Shown one piece after another: positions 15,707-23,532 of a DNA stretch of 26,727 nucleotides (positions are counted from its first letter, which is position 1; each line of letters opens with the position of its first letter). Origin of the DNA: a virus; IMG/VR virus record IMGVR_UViG_3300003187_000009, positions 9,961-36,687 of that record; one strand, given 5' to 3'. Below the pieces are notes generated by a model that saw nothing but the letters and a program-made list of their open reading frames with translations, was not told where the DNA came from and searched no databases. Position numbers and translations under genes: made by a program.

Positions 15707-17125
15707 ATGGCCCGCTACCCGCTGATCACTGCCGCCTACACAGCGCGCAGCAAGAAGGCGTCCGCCCAGCGCTGCGTGAACCTGTTCCCCGAGCAGAATC
15801 CGCAGGATGCGCCGGCGCCGTTCACGTTCTACGGCACGCCTGGCTACACGCTGTGGAGCACGGTGCCGGGAGACGGGGCGGTGCGGCTGGAATACGTGTC
15901 GAGCAACGGCATCCTGTTTGCCGTGCGTGGCGCGCGGGTCTATCGCTACAACGCCGGGACGTGGGCGGTAGCTGGCGCGCTTGGCACGACGGATGGCCGT
16001 GTGGTGGCCGCCGACAACGGCACCAACGTGGTGTTTGTCGACGGAACCATTCTGGCGCCTACCGTCAACCTGAACACCTTCACGGTGGGGGCGATGAGCG
16101 GTGACGGATGGTACGGCGCCGATTTCGTCTATTTCCTGAATGGCCGGCTGGTTTTCAACAAGCCTGGCACTCAGCAGTTCTACTGGACCGGCCTTTACGC
16201 GCTGACGCTCGATCCGCTGGACTTCTCCAGCGCGGAAGGCTCGCCGGATTCCATCGTGGCCATGCTGGTCGACCACGCGGAACTGTGGTTCTGGGGCCCG
16301 CAAAGCCTGGAAATCTTCTACGACAGCGGTGATGCGGACGCGCCGTACCAGCGCGTGCAGGGCGCATTCAACGAAGTAGGGTGCGTGGCACCGCACTCGG
16401 TGAACCGCCTGGACAACACGATCTACTGGCTTGGCCGGGACAGGAACGGCGGCAACATCGTCTTCCGCGCGGCCAATTACCAGCCCCAGCGGGTGAGCAC
16501 GCACGCGATCGAGAAGGAGTTCGACGGCTACAGCCGCACCGACGACGCCTTCTCGTGGACCTACCAGCAGGAGGGGCACACCTTCTACGTGCTGGTGTTT
16601 CCGACTGCCAGCAAGACGTGGGTGTTCGACGTGGCCACCGGCCTGTGGCACGAACGGGCATACCGGAAGTCGGATGGGGCGCTGATCCGCCACCGTGGCA
16701 ACTGCCACGCCTATTTCGACAGCAAGCACCTGGTTGGCGACTTCGAGAACGGCAACGTCTACCAGCTGAGCATGGACGTCTACCAGGACAACGGCGACGA
16801 CATCGAGCGGTTCAAGGACTCGGCGCACACGTCAAACGGCGTGCGCACCTTCTATTCGCGCTTCCGGCTGGATTGCGAGGTCGGTGTGGGCAACGAGACG
16901 GGATCAGACCCCAATGTGTGGATCCAGTGGAGCGACGACGGCGGCTATTCGTGGTCGTCCTCTTTGATCCGCTCGCTGGGCAAGATCGGGGAGACGAAAA
17001 AGCAGGTCGACGTGACGCGCTGCGGATCGGGGCAGGACCGCATCTTCCGCGTCGGTACCAGCGCCAATGCGCGGATCTCGTTCAGCGGGGCATTCGTGAA
17101 CGTGGTGCCCGGGGTGGGTAACTGA
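15707..17125 (+). CDS. P22 gp10-like packaged-DNA stabilisation protein (472 aa)
   Basis: P22 gp10 forms the hexameric hub below gp4. The length (472 aa) equals that of the family, and the N-terminus (MARYPLITAAYTARSKKASA, QRCVNLFPEQNPQDAPAPF) is characteristic. Later segments such as WFWGPQSLEIFYDSGDADAP, AFNEVGCVAPHSVNRLDNTI and ATGLWHERAYRKS are also typical. The start codon follows directly on the gp4-like stop, and the stop overlaps the next start (TGATG). Third positions are even richer in G/C than in the early genes. Confidence 0.93.
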   Translation: MARYPLITAAYTARSKKASAQRCVNLFPEQNPQDAPAPFTFYGTPGYTLWSTVPGDGAVRLEYVSSNGILFAVRGARVYRYNAGTWAVAGALGTTDGRVVAADNGTNVVFVDGTILAPTVNLNTFTVGAMSGDGWYGADFVYFLNGRLVFNKPGTQQFYWTGLYALTLDPLDFSSAEGSPDSIVAMLVDHAELWFWGPQSLEIFYDSGDADAPYQRVQGAFNEVGCVAPHSVNRLDNTIYWLGRDRNGGNIVFRAANYQPQRVSTHAIEKEFDGYSRTDDAFSWTYQQEGHTFYVLVFPTASKTWVFDVATGLWHERAYRKSDGALIRHRGNCHAYFDSKHLVGDFENGNVYQLSMDVYQDNGDDIERFKDSAHTSNGVRTFYSRFRLDCEVGVGNETGSDPNVWIQWSDDGGYSWSSSLIRSLGKIGETKKQVDVTRCGSGQDRIFRVGTSANARISFSGAFVNVVPGVGN

Positions 17126-17769
17126 TGGCGCAGATCTCGCTGCCCGGCTACCGGGAGCCGCTGACCGACCCGGATGGCAACATTTCCCGCGCGTGGTGGC
17201 GGTTCTTTCAGGGGCTGGCCACGCTGACGGGTGGTGGAGACATCCCGGACCTGAGCGCAATCATCGCCGCCATTGCCGATCTGCGTAGCCAGGTGCAGGA
17301 GCAGGAAGTGTCGTTGCAGCCAGCGGCGGCACTGGAAGCGCTTCAGCAGATCGAAGAACTGGCGACCCGCCTGCGCGACGCCGAGAACCTGACCGGCTTC
17401 AAGTCGAAGATCACCGAACTGGAAGACTTGCTGCTCTCGCTTCAGACGCCGGCCGTACCGAATCAGGTGGAGTCGATCACGTTTCCGACATTGGGCAATT
17501 CGTGGGCCAACACGGCGGGGCGCCCAGTGGGCTACTACAAGGACCCGAACGGCATCGTCCGGCTGCAGGGCTTCCCGACTTCAGGTGTCATTGGCACCGC
17601 GCTTTTCACGCTTCCTGTGGGCTATCGACCTGCCTTCCGCCAGTTCTTCGCGGTGGTGAGCAACGACTTGTTCGGCGCCTGCTACGTCGACTCCAACGGC
17701 GATGTCGTTGCCTACAAAGGCAGCAACGCCTATTTCAGCCTGGACGGCGTTTCGTTCCGTTCAGCATAG
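17125..17769 (+). CDS. Tail needle candidate, gp26-like by position (214 aa)
   Basis: In P22 the gene after gp10 is gp26, the trimeric tail needle (233 aa). Here the product has an N-terminal segment (GYREPLTDPDGNISRAWWRF), a long coiled-coil (residues about 50-110, with LRSQVQEQEVSLQPAAALEA and KITELEDLLLSLQ) and a C-terminal knob-like domain (GYYKDPNGIVRLQGFPTSGV, FTLPVGYRPAFRQFF). The knob resembles C-terminal domains of tail tips and fibres. A needle plugging the tail and touching the membrane is the best reading; a short fibre is the alternative. Confidence 0.7.
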   Translation: MAQISLPGYREPLTDPDGNISRAWWRFFQGLATLTGGGDIPDLSAIIAAIADLRSQVQEQEVSLQPAAALEALQQIEELATRLRDAENLTGFKSKITELEDLLLSLQTPAVPNQVESITFPTLGNSWANTAGRPVGYYKDPNGIVRLQGFPTSGVIGTALFTLPVGYRPAFRQFFAVVSNDLFGACYVDSNGDVVAYKGSNAYFSLDGVSFRSA

Positions 17770-17777
17770 GAAAGACC

Positions 17778-18125
17778 ATGGCAATCACTTACACCAAGCT
17801 CTTCCAGCCCACGATGCTTACCACGTCGGACGTGACGATCTTCACGGCCGGCAGTGGCGTGCCGCCGACGGCAGTGCTGCGCGGCGGGCGCGTCCGGCTC
17901 ACGAACGTGACGACTACCCCGCAGACCTACCGCCTGACATTCGTCCCCAGCGGCGGTTCGGCGTCCGACACCAATATTTCCCCGAAGGACAAGTCGCTCG
18001 GCCCGCTCGATGTCATCGATATCGACCTGCCGACGCTCGTCAATGGTGACGCCATGCTGGCGCGCGCCGGCGCAGCGTCTTCCATCAACATTCAGTTCAT
18101 CAGCGGAGCCTACTTCACCCCATGA
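17778..18125 (+). CDS. Hypothetical beta-rich virion-module protein (115 aa)
   Basis: ATG at 17778 with AGGAAAG upstream, 8 bp after the needle-like gene. The product looks like a beta-sandwich (VLRGGRVRLTNVTTTPQTYR, GPLDVIDIDLPTLVNGDAML). It takes the place of P22 gene 14, but I see no similarity that would prove this. The stop overlaps the start of the oxygenase gene (ATGA), so the two are coupled. Confidence 0.65.
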   Translation: MAITYTKLFQPTMLTTSDVTIFTAGSGVPPTAVLRGGRVRLTNVTTTPQTYRLTFVPSGGSASDTNISPKDKSLGPLDVIDIDLPTLVNGDAMLARAGAASSINIQFISGAYFTP

Positions 18126-18703
18126 AGAATTTCATGCAACTAGCCGGCGGAGTCGACGTCCTCCCGCTGCTGCTGGCCATTCAGCGCCGTCCCGAACTCT
18201 GGCAGGAAGACGACTTCCTGCGGAACTACCCGCAAGGCCCGTTCGGCGAGGTGGAAACGATTTTCCTGCGCTTCCCGAAGCGGCTGGTTGGGATCTCCGA
18301 CGAGGATGTCGAGCGCTACAAGCAGAATCTGCTACCCGGCTGGGATCAGCACGAATCGATCGATTACCCGGCATACGCCACGCTGCATGAGGCCAGGCCA
18401 CTGGTTATGAACCTGATGTCGCGCGTGCAGGGCGAGCGCTTGGGCCGCGTGATGATCAACAAGATCAACCCCGGTGGCCGGATCTACCCGCATGCTGACA
18501 CGCCGGAGCATGCGAACTACTACAGCCGCTTCCATGTCGTCCTGCAGTCGGCACCTGGCTCTGACTTCCGGTGCGAAAACGAGCACGTGAACATGAAACA
18601 GGGCGAAGTCTGGTGGTTTAACAACAAGCTTGAGCACGAGGTGGTGAACAACAGCGCCGTTGCTCGCATCCACATGATTGTCGATATCCGGACCTCGCAA
18701 TGA
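18122..18703 (+). CDS. Asp/Asn beta-hydroxylase-like 2OG-Fe(II) oxygenase (193 aa)
   Basis: The C-terminal half carries the double-stranded beta-helix metal site of the aspartyl/asparaginyl hydroxylase family: His124-x-Asp126 (YPHADTPEHANYYSRFHVVL), His138, His172 (WWFNNKLEHEVVNNS) and Arg182 (ARIHMIVDI), the latter suited to bind 2-oxoglutarate. Expected activity is hydroxylation of an Asp, Asn or similar residue in a protein, using iron, oxygen and 2-oxoglutarate. The substrate is unknown; coupling to a virion gene suggests a tail or host-surface target. Such genes occur in phages, but here it is inside the gp26-gp7 interval. The next gene overlaps by 4 bp. Confidence 0.85.
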   Translation: MKNFMQLAGGVDVLPLLLAIQRRPELWQEDDFLRNYPQGPFGEVETIFLRFPKRLVGISDEDVERYKQNLLPGWDQHESIDYPAYATLHEARPLVMNLMSRVQGERLGRVMINKINPGGRIYPHADTPEHANYYSRFHVVLQSAPGSDFRCENEHVNMKQGEVWWFNNKLEHEVVNNSAVARIHMIVDIRTSQ

Positions 18704-19158
18704 TCACCTTCCACGTCGAACGCTTCGCTGATGTCTACGCCGAGATGTACCCGCTGCTGGTCGAGCACTACGACGAAATCAGCCAGCACAAGGAGCAGGG
18801 CATTCCGCTTGACCCGCAGGCCGAGGTCTACCAGGCGCGCGAGGATAGCGGCAACCTGCTGATGGTGATCGCGCGGGATAGTGGCCGCGTTATCGGGTAT
18901 TTCGTTGCGATCATCGCCCCGGCGCTGCATTACAAGTCGTGCCTGACCTGCTCGCCGGACATCTTCTACGTGCAGCAGGAGTATCGGCGCGGCGGTGCTG
19001 CCATGGGCATGTTCCAGTTCGTGGAAGCGGAGCTGCGCCGGCGCGGCGTGAAAGCGTGGATGGTGGGCAGCAAGGTCGCGCACGACGTGACGAAGCTGTT
19101 TGGACACCTCGGCTTCGCGCCGTTCGAAGAGATTCACGTGAAGTGGCTGGGGGACTGA
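18700..19158 (+). CDS. GNAT-family acetyltransferase (152 aa)
   Basis: The GNAT fold is visible as LLMVIARDSGRVIGYFVAII (strands 2-4) and the acetyl-CoA motif in IFYVQQEYRRGGAAMGMFQF followed by VEAELRRRGVKAW; the C-terminus has KLFGHLGFAPFEEI. It probably acetylates an amine on a protein or small molecule. Its ATG overlaps the oxygenase stop (ATGA), so the two enzymes are made together. Substrate unknown. Single GNAT genes are common in phage late regions. Confidence 0.85.
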   Translation: MITFHVERFADVYAEMYPLLVEHYDEISQHKEQGIPLDPQAEVYQAREDSGNLLMVIARDSGRVIGYFVAIIAPALHYKSCLTCSPDIFYVQQEYRRGGAAMGMFQFVEAELRRRGVKAWMVGSKVAHDVTKLFGHLGFAPFEEIHVKWLGD

Positions 19159-19159
19159 C

Positions 19160-19963
19160 ATGTTCGAATGGAAACGGAAACTCCTGCCGCTCAGCGGCCC
19201 TCAGGTGGCTGCTGCTGTCGCAGGCGGCGCAATCGTCGGGGGCGTGGCTTCTGGCGCGCTGGGGGCCAAGGGCGCCAAGGATGCGGCGAATGCCCAGGCG
19301 GATGCCGCGCGTGACTCGGCGCAGCTGCAATACGACATCTACCAGCAGCAACGCGAGGATCAGGAGCCGTTTCGTCAGACAGGTCTTGGTGCGCTTAACC
19401 AGTTGGCCTATCGACTCGGAATCGGTGCAGGATCAAGCAATGACCTGTTGCGCCGGTTCTCGATGGATGACTTCCAGACCGATCCCGGCTATCAGTTCCG
19501 TCTGGAGCAGGGGCAGAAGGGTCTGGAATCCTCAGCAGCGGCGCGTGGCGGCCTGCTGTCCGGTGCAGCTGCCAAGGCGCTGACCAAGTACAACCAAAAC
19601 TTCGCCTCCAACGAGTACTCAAACGCCTACAACCGGTTCAACAACGACCAGAACACGCTGTTCAACCGTCTGGCGTCGCTCGCTGGTGTAGGGCAAACGT
19701 CCACGAATGCCATTGGAAATGCCGGGCAGAATTACGCGACCGGAGCGGGGAACGCTCTTCAATACGGCGGTGCAGCGCGGGCATCGGGATACACGAACAC
19801 AGCAAATGCCATCAGCGGCGGTCTCGGATCTGCAACCGGTGGCCTGATCGGGTATGGAAACATGACAGGCTGGGGCAATACTGGCGGCTATGGCTACGGC
19901 GGGTCTACCTCATACCCGGTCACTGACTATTATTCCGGTGTCAATGGCACCCCTATCGCATAA
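19160..19963 (+). CDS. Ejection protein, gp7-like by position (267 aa)
   Basis: First of three internal virion proteins ejected with the DNA. The N-terminus has a small hydrophobic stretch (AAAVAGGAIVGGVASGALGA), then QADAARDSAQLQYDIYQQQR, EDQEPFRQTGLGALNQLAY and LESSAAARGGLLSGAAAKAL, which are characteristic of DNA-transfer proteins in P22-like phages. The C-terminus is Gly, Asn and Tyr rich. P22 gp7 is 229 aa. The neighbouring gp20-like and gp16-like genes confirm the context. Confidence 0.85.
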   Translation: MFEWKRKLLPLSGPQVAAAVAGGAIVGGVASGALGAKGAKDAANAQADAARDSAQLQYDIYQQQREDQEPFRQTGLGALNQLAYRLGIGAGSSNDLLRRFSMDDFQTDPGYQFRLEQGQKGLESSAAARGGLLSGAAAKALTKYNQNFASNEYSNAYNRFNNDQNTLFNRLASLAGVGQTSTNAIGNAGQNYATGAGNALQYGGAARASGYTNTANAISGGLGSATGGLIGYGNMTGWGNTGGYGYGGSTSYPVTDYYSGVNGTPIA

Positions 19964-19972
19964 GGGCGCATC

Positions 19973-21115
19973 ATGGCAGAGATCAATCCACTGGCCTTCC
20001 AGCAAGCCCAGCAAGCCGCTATCGGGGTCGCGGACAACGTTCGGCAGAACAGGCTGCAGCAGTTGGCCCTGCAGCGCGCCGAGGATGCCTATCAGCAAGA
20101 CCAGTCGGCGAATCGCTTGTATGCGGCCGCGCTCGGTCCGGATGGGACCATCGACCGCACCAAGCTGATCACCGGCTTCGCGCAGGGCGGTCTCGGCTCC
20201 AAGATCCCAGCGCTCCAGACGCAATTCGCTGCGCAGGACAAGGCATTGCGCGAGGCTGACAAGGCGAAGCTGGAGAGCATCAAGCAACATGTCGAGCTTC
20301 AAGGGCAGCTTCTTGGCGGTGTGCGCGACCAAGCCAGCTACGACGCGGCGCGCCAGCAGGCGGCGGCGGCCGGCATCGATGTCAGCCAATTGCCACAGCA
20401 GTACGATCCCGCATTCGTTCAGCAGGCCACGCAAAAGGCCCTTACGGCAGCGCAGCAAGTCGAGCAGATGTGGAAGCAGAAGGGCTACGACCTCGACCAG
20501 CAGAAGTTCGCCTATCAGCAGGGGAACGATGCGGCCAATCGTGGTGTGCAACTGCGCGGGCAAGACCTGAGCGCCGACACACAACGGCGTGGGCAGGATA
20601 TCACGCTACGTGGTCAAGATCTGACAGATGCCCGCGCCCGCGATACGTTGGCTCAGAACGCGTCCAATAAGGCGCCGACCGAGTTCCAAGGCAAGTCGGC
20701 TGGCTATGGAGCACGCGCCGAAGAAGCCGATCGCATCATCAATCAGCTTGGGAACGATGTCAGTCCCATGGCCGTGAATGCAAAGCAGGCTGCCGGCCGT
20801 GTTCCGCTTGTGGGAGGGGTTCTGGAGACCATTGGGAATGCCGCGCTCAGCCCGCAGAACCAACAACTGGAACAGGCCCAACGAGATTTCGTGAATGCCA
20901 CGCTCCGCCAGGAATCTGGCGCAGCCATCAGCCAAAGCGAATTCGAGAACGCCAAGCGGCAGTATTTCCCGCAGCCCGGTGACTCCAAGGAAGTTATCGC
21001 ACAGAAGGCAGCGAACCGTAGGCTGGCGATTGAGGGATTCAAGCGTTCTGCGGGAAAGGCCGCGTTCAGCGCACCTGGCGGCAAGCCATCCCTAGCTGAC
21101 ATCTTCGGCAACTGA
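19973..21115 (+). CDS. Ejection protein, gp20-like (380 aa)
   Basis: Long, alanine- and glutamine-rich helical protein (QQAQQAAIGVADNVRQNRLQ, QLALQRAEDAYQQDQSANRL). Residues about 195-225 hold repeated RGQDL units (LRGQDLSADTQRRGQDITLR), which I associate with this class of internal virion protein. The C-terminal half has VNATLRQESGAAISQSEFEN and QYFPQPGD, also seen in other phage DNA-transfer proteins. P22 gp20 is 471 aa. It follows the gp7-like gene after 9 bp and precedes the gp16-like gene by 2 bp. Confidence 0.82.
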   Translation: MAEINPLAFQQAQQAAIGVADNVRQNRLQQLALQRAEDAYQQDQSANRLYAAALGPDGTIDRTKLITGFAQGGLGSKIPALQTQFAAQDKALREADKAKLESIKQHVELQGQLLGGVRDQASYDAARQQAAAAGIDVSQLPQQYDPAFVQQATQKALTAAQQVEQMWKQKGYDLDQQKFAYQQGNDAANRGVQLRGQDLSADTQRRGQDITLRGQDLTDARARDTLAQNASNKAPTEFQGKSAGYGARAEEADRIINQLGNDVSPMAVNAKQAAGRVPLVGGVLETIGNAALSPQNQQLEQAQRDFVNATLRQESGAAISQSEFENAKRQYFPQPGDSKEVIAQKAANRRLAIEGFKRSAGKAAFSAPGGKPSLADIFGN

Positions 21116-21117
21116 TC

Positions 21118-23532
21118 ATGGATAACGTCAAGCGTTTCGCGGAACAGTACGGTCCGCTGGCGGCTGATGTCGGCCGCAAGATCGGCGTCGCGCCTGACGT
21201 GCTGCTCGGCCAGTGGGGGCTGGAGACCGGCTGGGGCAAGTCAGTGATCCCCGGGACGAACAATCTCGGCAACATCAAGGACTTCTCCGGTAGCGGCACC
21301 CGCGCGGTCGACAACATGACGGGCTCGAACGACGCCTACCGGACGTACTCCACGCCGGGCCAGTTCGGCAGCGACTTTGCTGACCTCATCTCGCGCCGGT
21401 ACAAGGGTGCGGTCGGTTCGGGAGCAGATGCCAGCAAGTTCGCCAGCGCTCTGAAGGCAGGCGGCTATGCAGAAGATCCCGCCTATGTCTCCAAGCTGTC
21501 CGGAGCCACGAACCTCGTAAGGAAATTCGCAGACATGGCACTCAGTTCCGTATCGGGCACGGCCAACGCGTCCACCGGCGATCTGGCGGCCAAGGTGAAG
21601 CAAGCCAGGGACGCCGGATACTCGGACGACGAGATTTTCCAGCATCTCGGCCAAAGTCAGGGATTCGCCGACAAGCTGAAGCAGGCGCGCGATGCCGGGT
21701 ACAGCGACGCGGAGATCAGGCAGCACTTCGGGCTGGGAGCGGCAGCCCCAGCTAAGGCGCCTGCGGCAGCGCCAGCCAAAGCGCCAGCCAAGGCGACAAA
21801 GGAAGAGCCCGGCGTGCTGGCATCCTTCGGCGCCAATGCCGGCAAGGGATTCGGCAATGCCGTGCTGGGCGCACAACAGCTGATCGGCAAGGGGCTGCAG
21901 CAGGTGGGGGCCACCACCGCGGGCGACTGGCTGGTGAAGGACGCCACCGAGGGCGCGCGCCGTCTGGAGGAACAGGCTCGCCCGTACGCTGAGGCTAACC
22001 CTGTGACGTCCGTTGCCGGTGAGCTCGTTGGCGCCGTGGCGAACCCGCTGAACCGCGTGGTGCCTCTTGCCGGAGCTGGCGGGCTGGCCGGTACCGCGCT
22101 GCGCGCCGGTGCCCAGGGTGCTATCTCCGGCGCCGTGACCCCGGTCACCCAGGATGACGGCAATTTTGCCGGCAACAAGCTGGCACAGATTGCGACCGGC
22201 GCGGGCATTGGCGCTGCCATCCCTGTCGCTGGCCGGGCTGTCTCCGCCGGTGGCCGCTATGTTGGCAATGCGCTGCGGTCGCTGGTTGATCCGTTCACGG
22301 AATCCGGGCAGACCCGGATTGCAGGGAACATTCTGCAGCGTTTCGCCGGTGACGCGCCGGTGACTGGCAATACAGCTGCGCTGGTGCCGGGCTCACAGCC
22401 GACGCTGGCGCAAGCTACCGGAAATGCTGGGCTGGCGACTCTGGAACGCGGGATTCAATCGTCCACGCCGCAGGGTGCAAACGCCTTCGCGGAGCGCGCG
22501 GCGCAGAATGCTGCTGCCCGCGGGGCGGCGCTGGAAGGCGCGACCGGAACGGCAGCGGACATTGCTACGGCGGAAGGCGCGCGCGGTGCTAAGGCATCTC
22601 AGCAACTGGCAGCAGCGTTCCAGAACGCACAGCCAGCCAATCCTCAGGGGTCGCTCGGGGTGATCGATTCCATCCTGAACGGCCCGAGCGGAAAGCGCGA
22701 TGCGGTGCGTGCTGCACTCAACAATATCCGTTCGAAGATCGTTGACGCACAAGGCAATCTCGAAACTAACCCCGAAACGCTCTACAACAGTGTGCGCAAG
22801 CAGATTGGCGACTTGCTCGATTCCCGTATGGCGGCGAGCAATCCGGCCGGCCTACAGGCTTCCCGCGAGCTGATCGCGGTGCGCGACGCACTGGATCAGG
22901 ACATCGCGGCAGCTGCTCCGGGTTTCGGGCAGTACCTATCCGACTACGCTGCAGCCTCCAAGCCGATCAATGCGATGGAGTTTTTGCAGGGGCTTCGCCT
23001 GACGGATGCTCAAGGAAATATCACCTTGGCCAAGGTGCAGAATGCCATTGCCAATATCACCAAGCAACGCGGGGCTTCCGGGGCCAATGGAGCGAAGGCT
23101 GTCAGCCAGGGGCAATTGGACGCACTGACGGCCATCCGTGATGACTTGCTTCGCGCGGCGAACTCTGGTGGCGGCAAGTCCATCGGTTCCAACACCTTCC
23201 AGAACCTGGCCACGAACAACATCGTGGAGAACGCGATTCCGGGCCCGGTGCGCGCATTAACTGGCGGCACGAACGGTCCGCTTGGGACGCTGGCCGGAAA
23301 GGTGGGGAATCTGGTCTATGGCGGGTCGAACGAGGCAATCCAGAACCGCCTTCTGGAAATGCTGCTGCAGCCCGGATCAGGGCTCGCGGCGCTCCATAAC
23401 GTCCGCGGCAATCAGGCGACCGGCGCGCTTGGCGGCAATGCGCTGCTTCAGCGTCTGGCGCCGCAGCTCGTCCCAGCGGGAGCCATCGGCGCAAACATGC
23501 TCGCGCGTCCCACCGGGTCGAATCCCCAGTAG
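21118..23532 (+). CDS. gp16-like ejection protein with N-terminal glucosaminidase-type domain (804 aa)
   Basis: Largest internal protein. Residues 1-140 form a peptidoglycan hydrolase domain of the FlgJ/glucosaminidase type: LLGQWGLETGWGKSVIPGTN with the likely catalytic Glu36, NLGNIKDF and YRTYSTPGQFGSDFADLI. Residues 157-206 contain two copies of a unit KQARDAGYSD-x-EI-x-QH. An Ala/Pro/Lys linker follows (207-230). Residues 230-410 are rich in Gly and Ala and weakly hydrophobic, suited to crossing membranes during ejection. The rest is helical. The domain set fits cell wall and inner membrane passage of DNA. P22 gp16 is 609 aa and lacks such a clear hydrolase domain. Confidence 0.88.
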   Translation: MDNVKRFAEQYGPLAADVGRKIGVAPDVLLGQWGLETGWGKSVIPGTNNLGNIKDFSGSGTRAVDNMTGSNDAYRTYSTPGQFGSDFADLISRRYKGAVGSGADASKFASALKAGGYAEDPAYVSKLSGATNLVRKFADMALSSVSGTANASTGDLAAKVKQARDAGYSDDEIFQHLGQSQGFADKLKQARDAGYSDAEIRQHFGLGAAAPAKAPAAAPAKAPAKATKEEPGVLASFGANAGKGFGNAVLGAQQLIGKGLQQVGATTAGDWLVKDATEGARRLEEQARPYAEANPVTSVAGELVGAVANPLNRVVPLAGAGGLAGTALRAGAQGAISGAVTPVTQDDGNFAGNKLAQIATGAGIGAAIPVAGRAVSAGGRYVGNALRSLVDPFTESGQTRIAGNILQRFAGDAPVTGNTAALVPGSQPTLAQATGNAGLATLERGIQSSTPQGANAFAERAAQNAAARGAALEGATGTAADIATAEGARGAKASQQLAAAFQNAQPANPQGSLGVIDSILNGPSGKRDAVRAALNNIRSKIVDAQGNLETNPETLYNSVRKQIGDLLDSRMAASNPAGLQASRELIAVRDALDQDIAAAAPGFGQYLSDYAAASKPINAMEFLQGLRLTDAQGNITLAKVQNAIANITKQRGASGANGAKAVSQGQLDALTAIRDDLLRAANSGGGKSIGSNTFQNLATNNIVENAIPGPVRALTGGTNGPLGTLAGKVGNLVYGGSNEAIQNRLLEMLLQPGSGLAALHNVRGNQATGALGGNALLQRLAPQLVPAGAIGANMLARPTGSNPQ

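Follow-up and report, generated by a model that had tools for sequence, protein, structure and literature searches.

A hydroxylase and GNAT acetyltransferase pair beside the DNA-ejection genes of short-tailed phages and its possible role in modifying ejection proteins

Introduction

Hundreds of short-tailed phages, spanning at least three builds, carry a PF05118-family hydroxylase and a GNAT-superfamily acetyltransferase as a pair beside their DNA-ejection genes. We propose, at a probability of roughly 0.4, that the two form a late-expressed, functionally linked enzyme pair that modifies ejection proteins, above all the gp7-like one. We infer joint catalysis, a protein rather than a small-molecule substrate, and an ejection protein as the target.

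Both enzymes had been taken to be known singly in phages, and published annotations bear this out (PMC12195039, PMC10142737): the hydroxylase of a Limnohabitans phage was annotated singly, among auxiliary genes (PMC12195039), and a phage GNAT stands directly before the internal virion protein gp14 (PMC10142737). In the searchable papers, which exclude most subscription journals, we found no description of an oxygenase and GNAT phage pair or of modified ejection proteins, nor any paper that assigns gene 14 to the GNATs or notes a concentration of enzymes before gp7. What appears to be undescribed is the conserved pairing, together with the hotspot and the link to gene 14; the two enzyme families themselves are familiar. 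If the proposal is true, enzymatic modification joins the building of the conduit through which short-tailed phages pass their DNA across the host envelope, and P22 gene 14, a classical morphogenesis gene, gains a testable molecular role. Public virus sequences contain many copies of the pair, and the proposal predicts that virion proteins should show simple shifts in mass. Were the target a host molecule, the finding that phages of different build keep an oxygenase and an acetyltransferase in nearly obligate association would still point to an undescribed two-enzyme function.

Results and Discussion

The enzyme pair in a P22-like late operon

The window, that is the whole stretch of 26,727 nt that was analysed, covers positions 9961-36687 of a 36,687 bp IMG/VR virus record. 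By gene order and by Pfam and PHROG profile matches its late operon is P22-like, running from a gp10-like protein through the needle-position protein, a beta-rich protein, the hydroxylase, the GNAT and the gp7-, gp20- and gp16-like proteins to the tailspike (Table 1). The ORF coordinates, the four active-site residues and the ATGA overlap between the two enzyme genes given by the sequence-only reading all agreed with the sequence, and its P22-type location for the pair was correct, directly before the gp7-like ejection gene. The coupling that it described between the beta-rich ORF and the hydroxylase was also found, as an ATGA overlap like that between hydroxylase and GNAT. The gp26 (needle) label is based on position only. 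The beta-rich ORF has no Pfam or PHROG match and is probably a virion or fibre-type protein; in many relatives a homologue of it stands before the enzyme place. The gp20-like ORF has no Pfam match and a weak PHROG match.

Table 1. Late-operon features of the window around the enzyme pair
Feature	Position	Strand	Basis
gp10-like head-closure (Hc3) protein	15707..17125	+	phrog_578, E=3.8e-117
Needle-like (gp26 position) protein	17125..17769	+	Position; weak minor-tail PHROG matches
Small beta-rich protein, 115 aa	17778..18125	+	ATGA overlap with hydroxylase start
PF05118 2-oxoglutarate/Fe(II) hydroxylase, 193 aa	18122..18703	+	Pfam, AF2 model, residue conservation
GNAT-superfamily acetyltransferase, 152 aa, at the P22 gene 14 place	18700..19158	+	Acetyltransf_1; conserved residues
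ATGA overlap, hydroxylase stop/GNAT start	18700..18703	+	Sequence
gp7-like DNA ejection protein, proposed substrate	19160..19963	+	phrog_598 'DNA ejection', E=2.3e-46; N-terminal comparison
gp20-like ejection protein, candidate substrate	19973..21115	+	Gene order
gp16-like ejection protein with N-terminal glucosaminidase domain, candidate substrate	21118..23532	+	PF01832, E=1.4e-18

The hydroxylase and GNAT genes behave as integral late genes. Their GC contents (0.59 and 0.62) are close to that of the window (0.61), and no promoter or terminator of their own gave a signal above chance, which led us to reject a free-standing moron. PADLOC models gave no match and thus no indication of a role in anti-phage defence. 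Against the nearest relative, L010, the hydroxylase has a dN/dS of 0.016 and the GNAT one of 0.018, compared with 0.023 for gp10, and the two ORFs are therefore not chance reading frames. In the proposed mechanism the overlapping, translationally coupled genes would allow both enzymes to be made together with the virion proteins.

Family and active site of the hydroxylase

The hydroxylase matches Asp_Arg_Hydrox (PF05118) with E=3.8e-16 (59.8 bits against a curated cut-off of 22.6), and its active site is complete: H124, D126 and H172 are present in 192/192 distinct relatives and R182 in 191/192. The AF2 model has a pLDDT of 90.6; among solved structures the hydroxylase is matched best by L-proline cis-4-hydroxylase (4p7w) and next by human AspH. 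With the former it shares the fold and the HxD...H...R active site, but 4p7w acts on a free amino acid, is about 280 aa long and 19% identical, and is found outside phage late operons. With human AspH it shares the PF05118 domain and fold, whereas AspH has Gly at the position of Asp126 (HTG in the alignment) and its solved constructs are longer, with a TPR domain; the architecture of AspH proper (TPR plus oxygenase, HxG motif) is thus not that of the window protein, a single domain with HxD. Pfam scans of the neighbouring proteins found no EGF-like domain, the substrate type of human AspH. The earlier label of Asp/Asn hydroxylase therefore stands for the family; the substrate specificity in it does not follow, given the full HxD...H triad and a nearest solved fold that is a free-proline enzyme.

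Two observations on other family members may be recorded here. At L089:5001-5582, on a contig shared with L156, the hydroxylase ORF is interrupted and falls into two parts, possibly as a decayed copy or through an assembly error. Distant PF05118 relatives occur outside phage context on alphaproteobacterial contigs (L212-L216), and in L214 and L216 the gene clusters with an ABC transporter and two uncharacterised genes.

Conserved pairing of the two genes

Relatives were gathered with the hydroxylase, the GNAT and alignments of each as queries. In the first survey a GNAT lay directly downstream in 116/132 distinct hydroxylases, the others having a GNAT on the other strand (6), lying at a contig end (3) or having no GNAT in the locus (7), and a hydroxylase was present in 70/70 loci fetched by the GNAT query; these are nearest relatives, so neither figure is unbiased. 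The 4-nt overlap was seen again in 71 distinct relatives. Prophage copies come mostly from Burkholderiales hosts, Acinetobacter and Rhodanobacter being among the others; cultured phages with the pair include Pseudomonas phage PfAn1 and Limnohabitans phage DC33.

As a control, loci anchored on gp10 were gathered independently of either enzyme. Among the 81 with at least 4.5 kb downstream, 6 had both enzymes, 6 the GNAT only, none the hydroxylase only and 69 neither (Fisher p=2.8e-6, which overstates independence because the loci are related to each other); all six GNAT-only loci carried GNATs of more distant types. The pair is thus an accessory module in the tail type of the window, and there the hydroxylase implies the GNAT. 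Outside the gp10 set this GNAT type occurs alone, a hydroxylase not being seen in 18/20 GNAT-bearing phage records. Conversely, ctXG1253 (L003) has a hydroxylase and no detected GNAT, and its hydroxylase gene lies directly 5' of a 'DNA ejection' gene.

A second, deeply diverged lineage from freshwater and marine phages has hydroxylases about 33% identical to that of the window, in the order TerL-hydroxylase-GNAT-107 aa protein-portal, and keeps the adjacent pair in 77/80 loci. The sequence-only reading had named a survey of co-occurrence as a test that could overturn its proposal; the pairing is clear in both lineages, and this supports a functional pairing of the two enzymes in the late operon. 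A whole-genome comparison of the window phage with three second-lineage members, in which the ORF caller masked the window GNAT, gave one common gene besides the pair, outside the structural region. The GNATs of PfAn1 and of a Burkholderiales prophage match the GNAT in 2/3 of these members, and the GNAT profile finds it in 3/3.

Moreover, the pair holds together where its arrangement does not. In four Burkholderiales prophages (L201, L204, L206 and L207) the enzymes are on opposite strands about 4 kb apart, both retained, with the hydroxylase adjoining TerL on the other strand; after the GNAT come a different 123 aa protein and the portal, and the gp7-like gene is elsewhere. Partners have also been swapped independently: L011 is 84% identical to the window in the hydroxylase and 42% in the GNAT, and in L205 and L208 the hydroxylases are 44% and the GNATs 94% identical. 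The last two are prophage fragments, on contigs 50 and 51 of Cupriavidus basilensis KF708. A linkage that outlasts both separation and partner exchange points to a shared function. We consider it very improbable that the two genes are accessory cargo (moron or auxiliary metabolic genes) with no joint role, as might be thought from their presence in a minority of phages with a related gp10 and from the authors of the Limnohabitans phage counting the hydroxylase as an auxiliary gene (PMC12195039); besides the near-obligate pairing, partner exchange and survival after separation, the window-like GC, the lack of promoter and terminator signals above chance and dN/dS of about 0.02 speak against it.

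The ejection protein as the preferred substrate

In both lineages the gene after the GNAT is a gp7-like gene or encodes a short protein with a similar N-terminus. The gp7-like protein of the window has a 15-residue leader, MFEWKRKLLPLSGPQ (19160-19210), joined exactly at the conserved VAAAV start, and several relatives carry other leaders at the identical VAAAV junction. In most lineage-1 loci the protein after the GNAT starts MVAAAV, and in all of lineage 2 it starts M[GAV] followed by a hydrophobic Ala/Val stretch. The window leader is reminiscent of the 20-residue leader of P22 gp7, which is cleaved by host OpdA. This shared N-terminal pattern and the likeness of the leader lead us to favour the small ejection protein, and other ejection proteins next. 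According to the proposed mechanism, an ejection protein, foremost the gp7-like product of the gene directly downstream, would be modified before or during packaging, by hydroxylation on a side chain and acetylation on the N-terminus or a lysine, and the modification might tune solubility, packaging or membrane insertion at infection. For phage virion proteins there is precedent for acetylation, phosphorylation and methylation (PMC13288928). Two points weigh against the proposal: the separated prophages have their gp7-like gene away from the GNAT, and the enzyme closest in fold to the hydroxylase uses free proline.

A virion protein such as the needle or tailspike, or else a host surface target, had earlier been suggested as the target. 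Neither of the two named virion proteins is the conserved neighbour of the pair, which in two lineages is the small gp7-like ejection protein. We judge the needle, the tailspike and the beta-rich protein improbable as targets: the beta-rich ORF does overlap the hydroxylase by ATGA and its homologues often lie 5' of the enzyme place, but the needle and beta proteins are absent or replaced in several pair-bearing phages and went undetected in the second lineage, whose pair comes after TerL.

A target in the host is a serious rival to the ejection protein, because the two lineages have no recognisable substrate protein in common, though on balance we regard it as unlikely. Here the pair would act in late infection on an envelope component, a ribosomal or other host protein or a metabolite, and its site in the late operon would serve timing only. 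With no other structural-region protein detected in common, a substrate shared by both lineages is more readily imagined in the host; the nearest hydroxylase fold is that of free L-proline cis-4-hydroxylase, and chromosomal PF05118 relatives in alphaproteobacteria adjoin an ABC transporter. The position of the pair directly upstream of ejection genes across lineages argues the other way, as do the enzyme-rich place before these genes (see below), the hydroxylase that abuts an ejection gene in a phage with no detected GNAT, and selection on the pair that matches gp10 in strength.

The GNAT and its counterparts before the first ejection gene

The GNAT matches Acetyltransf_1 (PF00583) with E=3.4e-5 (24.5 bits, curated cut-off 20.7) and also PF13673 (23.9 bits, cut-off 23.6). 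Across 175 distinct relatives H23, Y67 and K125 are invariant, and E26, Y44, H77, Y78, D87 and R96 are each present in at least 174; such near-invariant residues suggest that an active site is maintained. In the acetyl-CoA loop, R/Q-x-x-G-x-G/A, the window has RRGGAA, and among the same relatives R96 is kept in 174 and G/A at position 101 in 169, while position 99 is mostly not glycine, and for this reason catalysis by the GNAT is not certain. In a small tree of weak support, GNATs from phages without the hydroxylase fall between the two pair-bearing lineages, a placement that would fit either two gains of the hydroxylase or a loss. The GNATs of Vibrio Zobellviridae, GP100 and ct2os315 phages (phrog_1249) are alike in type and in their place before small ejection or coil proteins, but no hydroxylase was detected in those genomes.

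The place itself was surveyed by scanning with Pfam 71 proteins directly 5' of gp7 in gp10-anchored loci. They included Cupin_2 (15), GNAT (at least 10), SET (6), DUF2824 (5) and 2OG-FeII_Oxy_3 (1) proteins. In L518 a 2OG-FeII_Oxy_3/DUF6445 oxygenase and a GNAT have the same 4-nt overlap directly before gp7, but this oxygenase is from another Pfam family and the GNAT is distant, and the pair looks like an independent assembly of an oxygenase with a GNAT. The SET-domain proteins, of 270-295 aa and directly 5' of gp7-like genes (L443:8120-8932, L461:8746-9594, L480:10595-11461, L482 and L514), lie in podovirus-type contigs and are possibly lysine methyltransferases.

The P22 gene 14 protein (DUF2824, PF11039) resembles the window GNAT in its place before gp7 and in length (151 against 152 aa); P22 differs in having no hydroxylase there. 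One protein of the survey, L552:3828-4289, matches both DUF2824 and Acetyltransf_3 above cut-off; L541, L532 and L519 also match DUF2824 and GNAT families, other bridging matches being weaker than those of L552, and P22 gp14 aligns with the bridging proteins. In addition, all 50 best matches of an AF2 model of gp14 (pLDDT 44, low confidence) were GNAT structures. We therefore conclude that P22 gp14 probably belongs to the GNAT superfamily, a link carried mainly by the proteins that match both Pfam families, to which the low-confidence fold model adds support rather than proof. The window GNAT gave no profile match to DUF2824 at E up to 10, and the profile-profile comparison was negative. The earlier statement that this place in P22 holds gene 14 was right about the place, but any contrast with a GNAT falls if gp14 is itself one: that place is then taken by a GNAT in both phages, and only the hydroxylase is extra. 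In the proposed mechanism the hydroxylase would have joined a GNAT already standing there.

T7 gp13 (PF11090, internal virion protein A/probable scaffold) similarly comes from a small gene that immediately precedes gp14, the first of the ejection genes, but its sequence relation to the window GNAT is not detectable, neither a profile match nor the profile-profile comparison being positive. Annotations at these places do not speak of enzymes: P22 gp14 is recorded as a virion stability/head factor and T7 gp13 as a probable scaffold required for gp6.7 incorporation. Together with the grouping of gp14 with GNATs by the bridging sequences and the variable loop position 99, they would suit a GNAT-fold protein that serves chiefly in the assembly of ejection proteins rather than as a catalyst, the hydroxylase acting on the GNAT or independently. 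We hold this, too, to be rather unlikely, as the near-invariant polar residues H23, E26, H77, Y78, D87, R96 and K125 resemble a maintained active site and the SET proteins and 2OG oxygenases at the gp7-upstream place argue for chemistry. Returning to modification of ejection proteins, a wider version of it is conceivable but doubtful: the place before the first ejection gene may hold a dedicated, interchangeable set of protein-modifying enzymes (GNAT, 2OG hydroxylase, SET) that matures the ejection machinery, with P22 gene 14 as one version.

Observations on second-lineage phages

Limnohabitans phage DC33 (PQ492659.1, L387) is filed as Inoviridae, a placement that looks wrong for a phage whose 39 kb double-stranded genome encodes a terminase and a head-tail connector. 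Further, second-lineage phages encode a giant structural-region protein of about 2,800-3,125 aa, as at L387:22242-31619.
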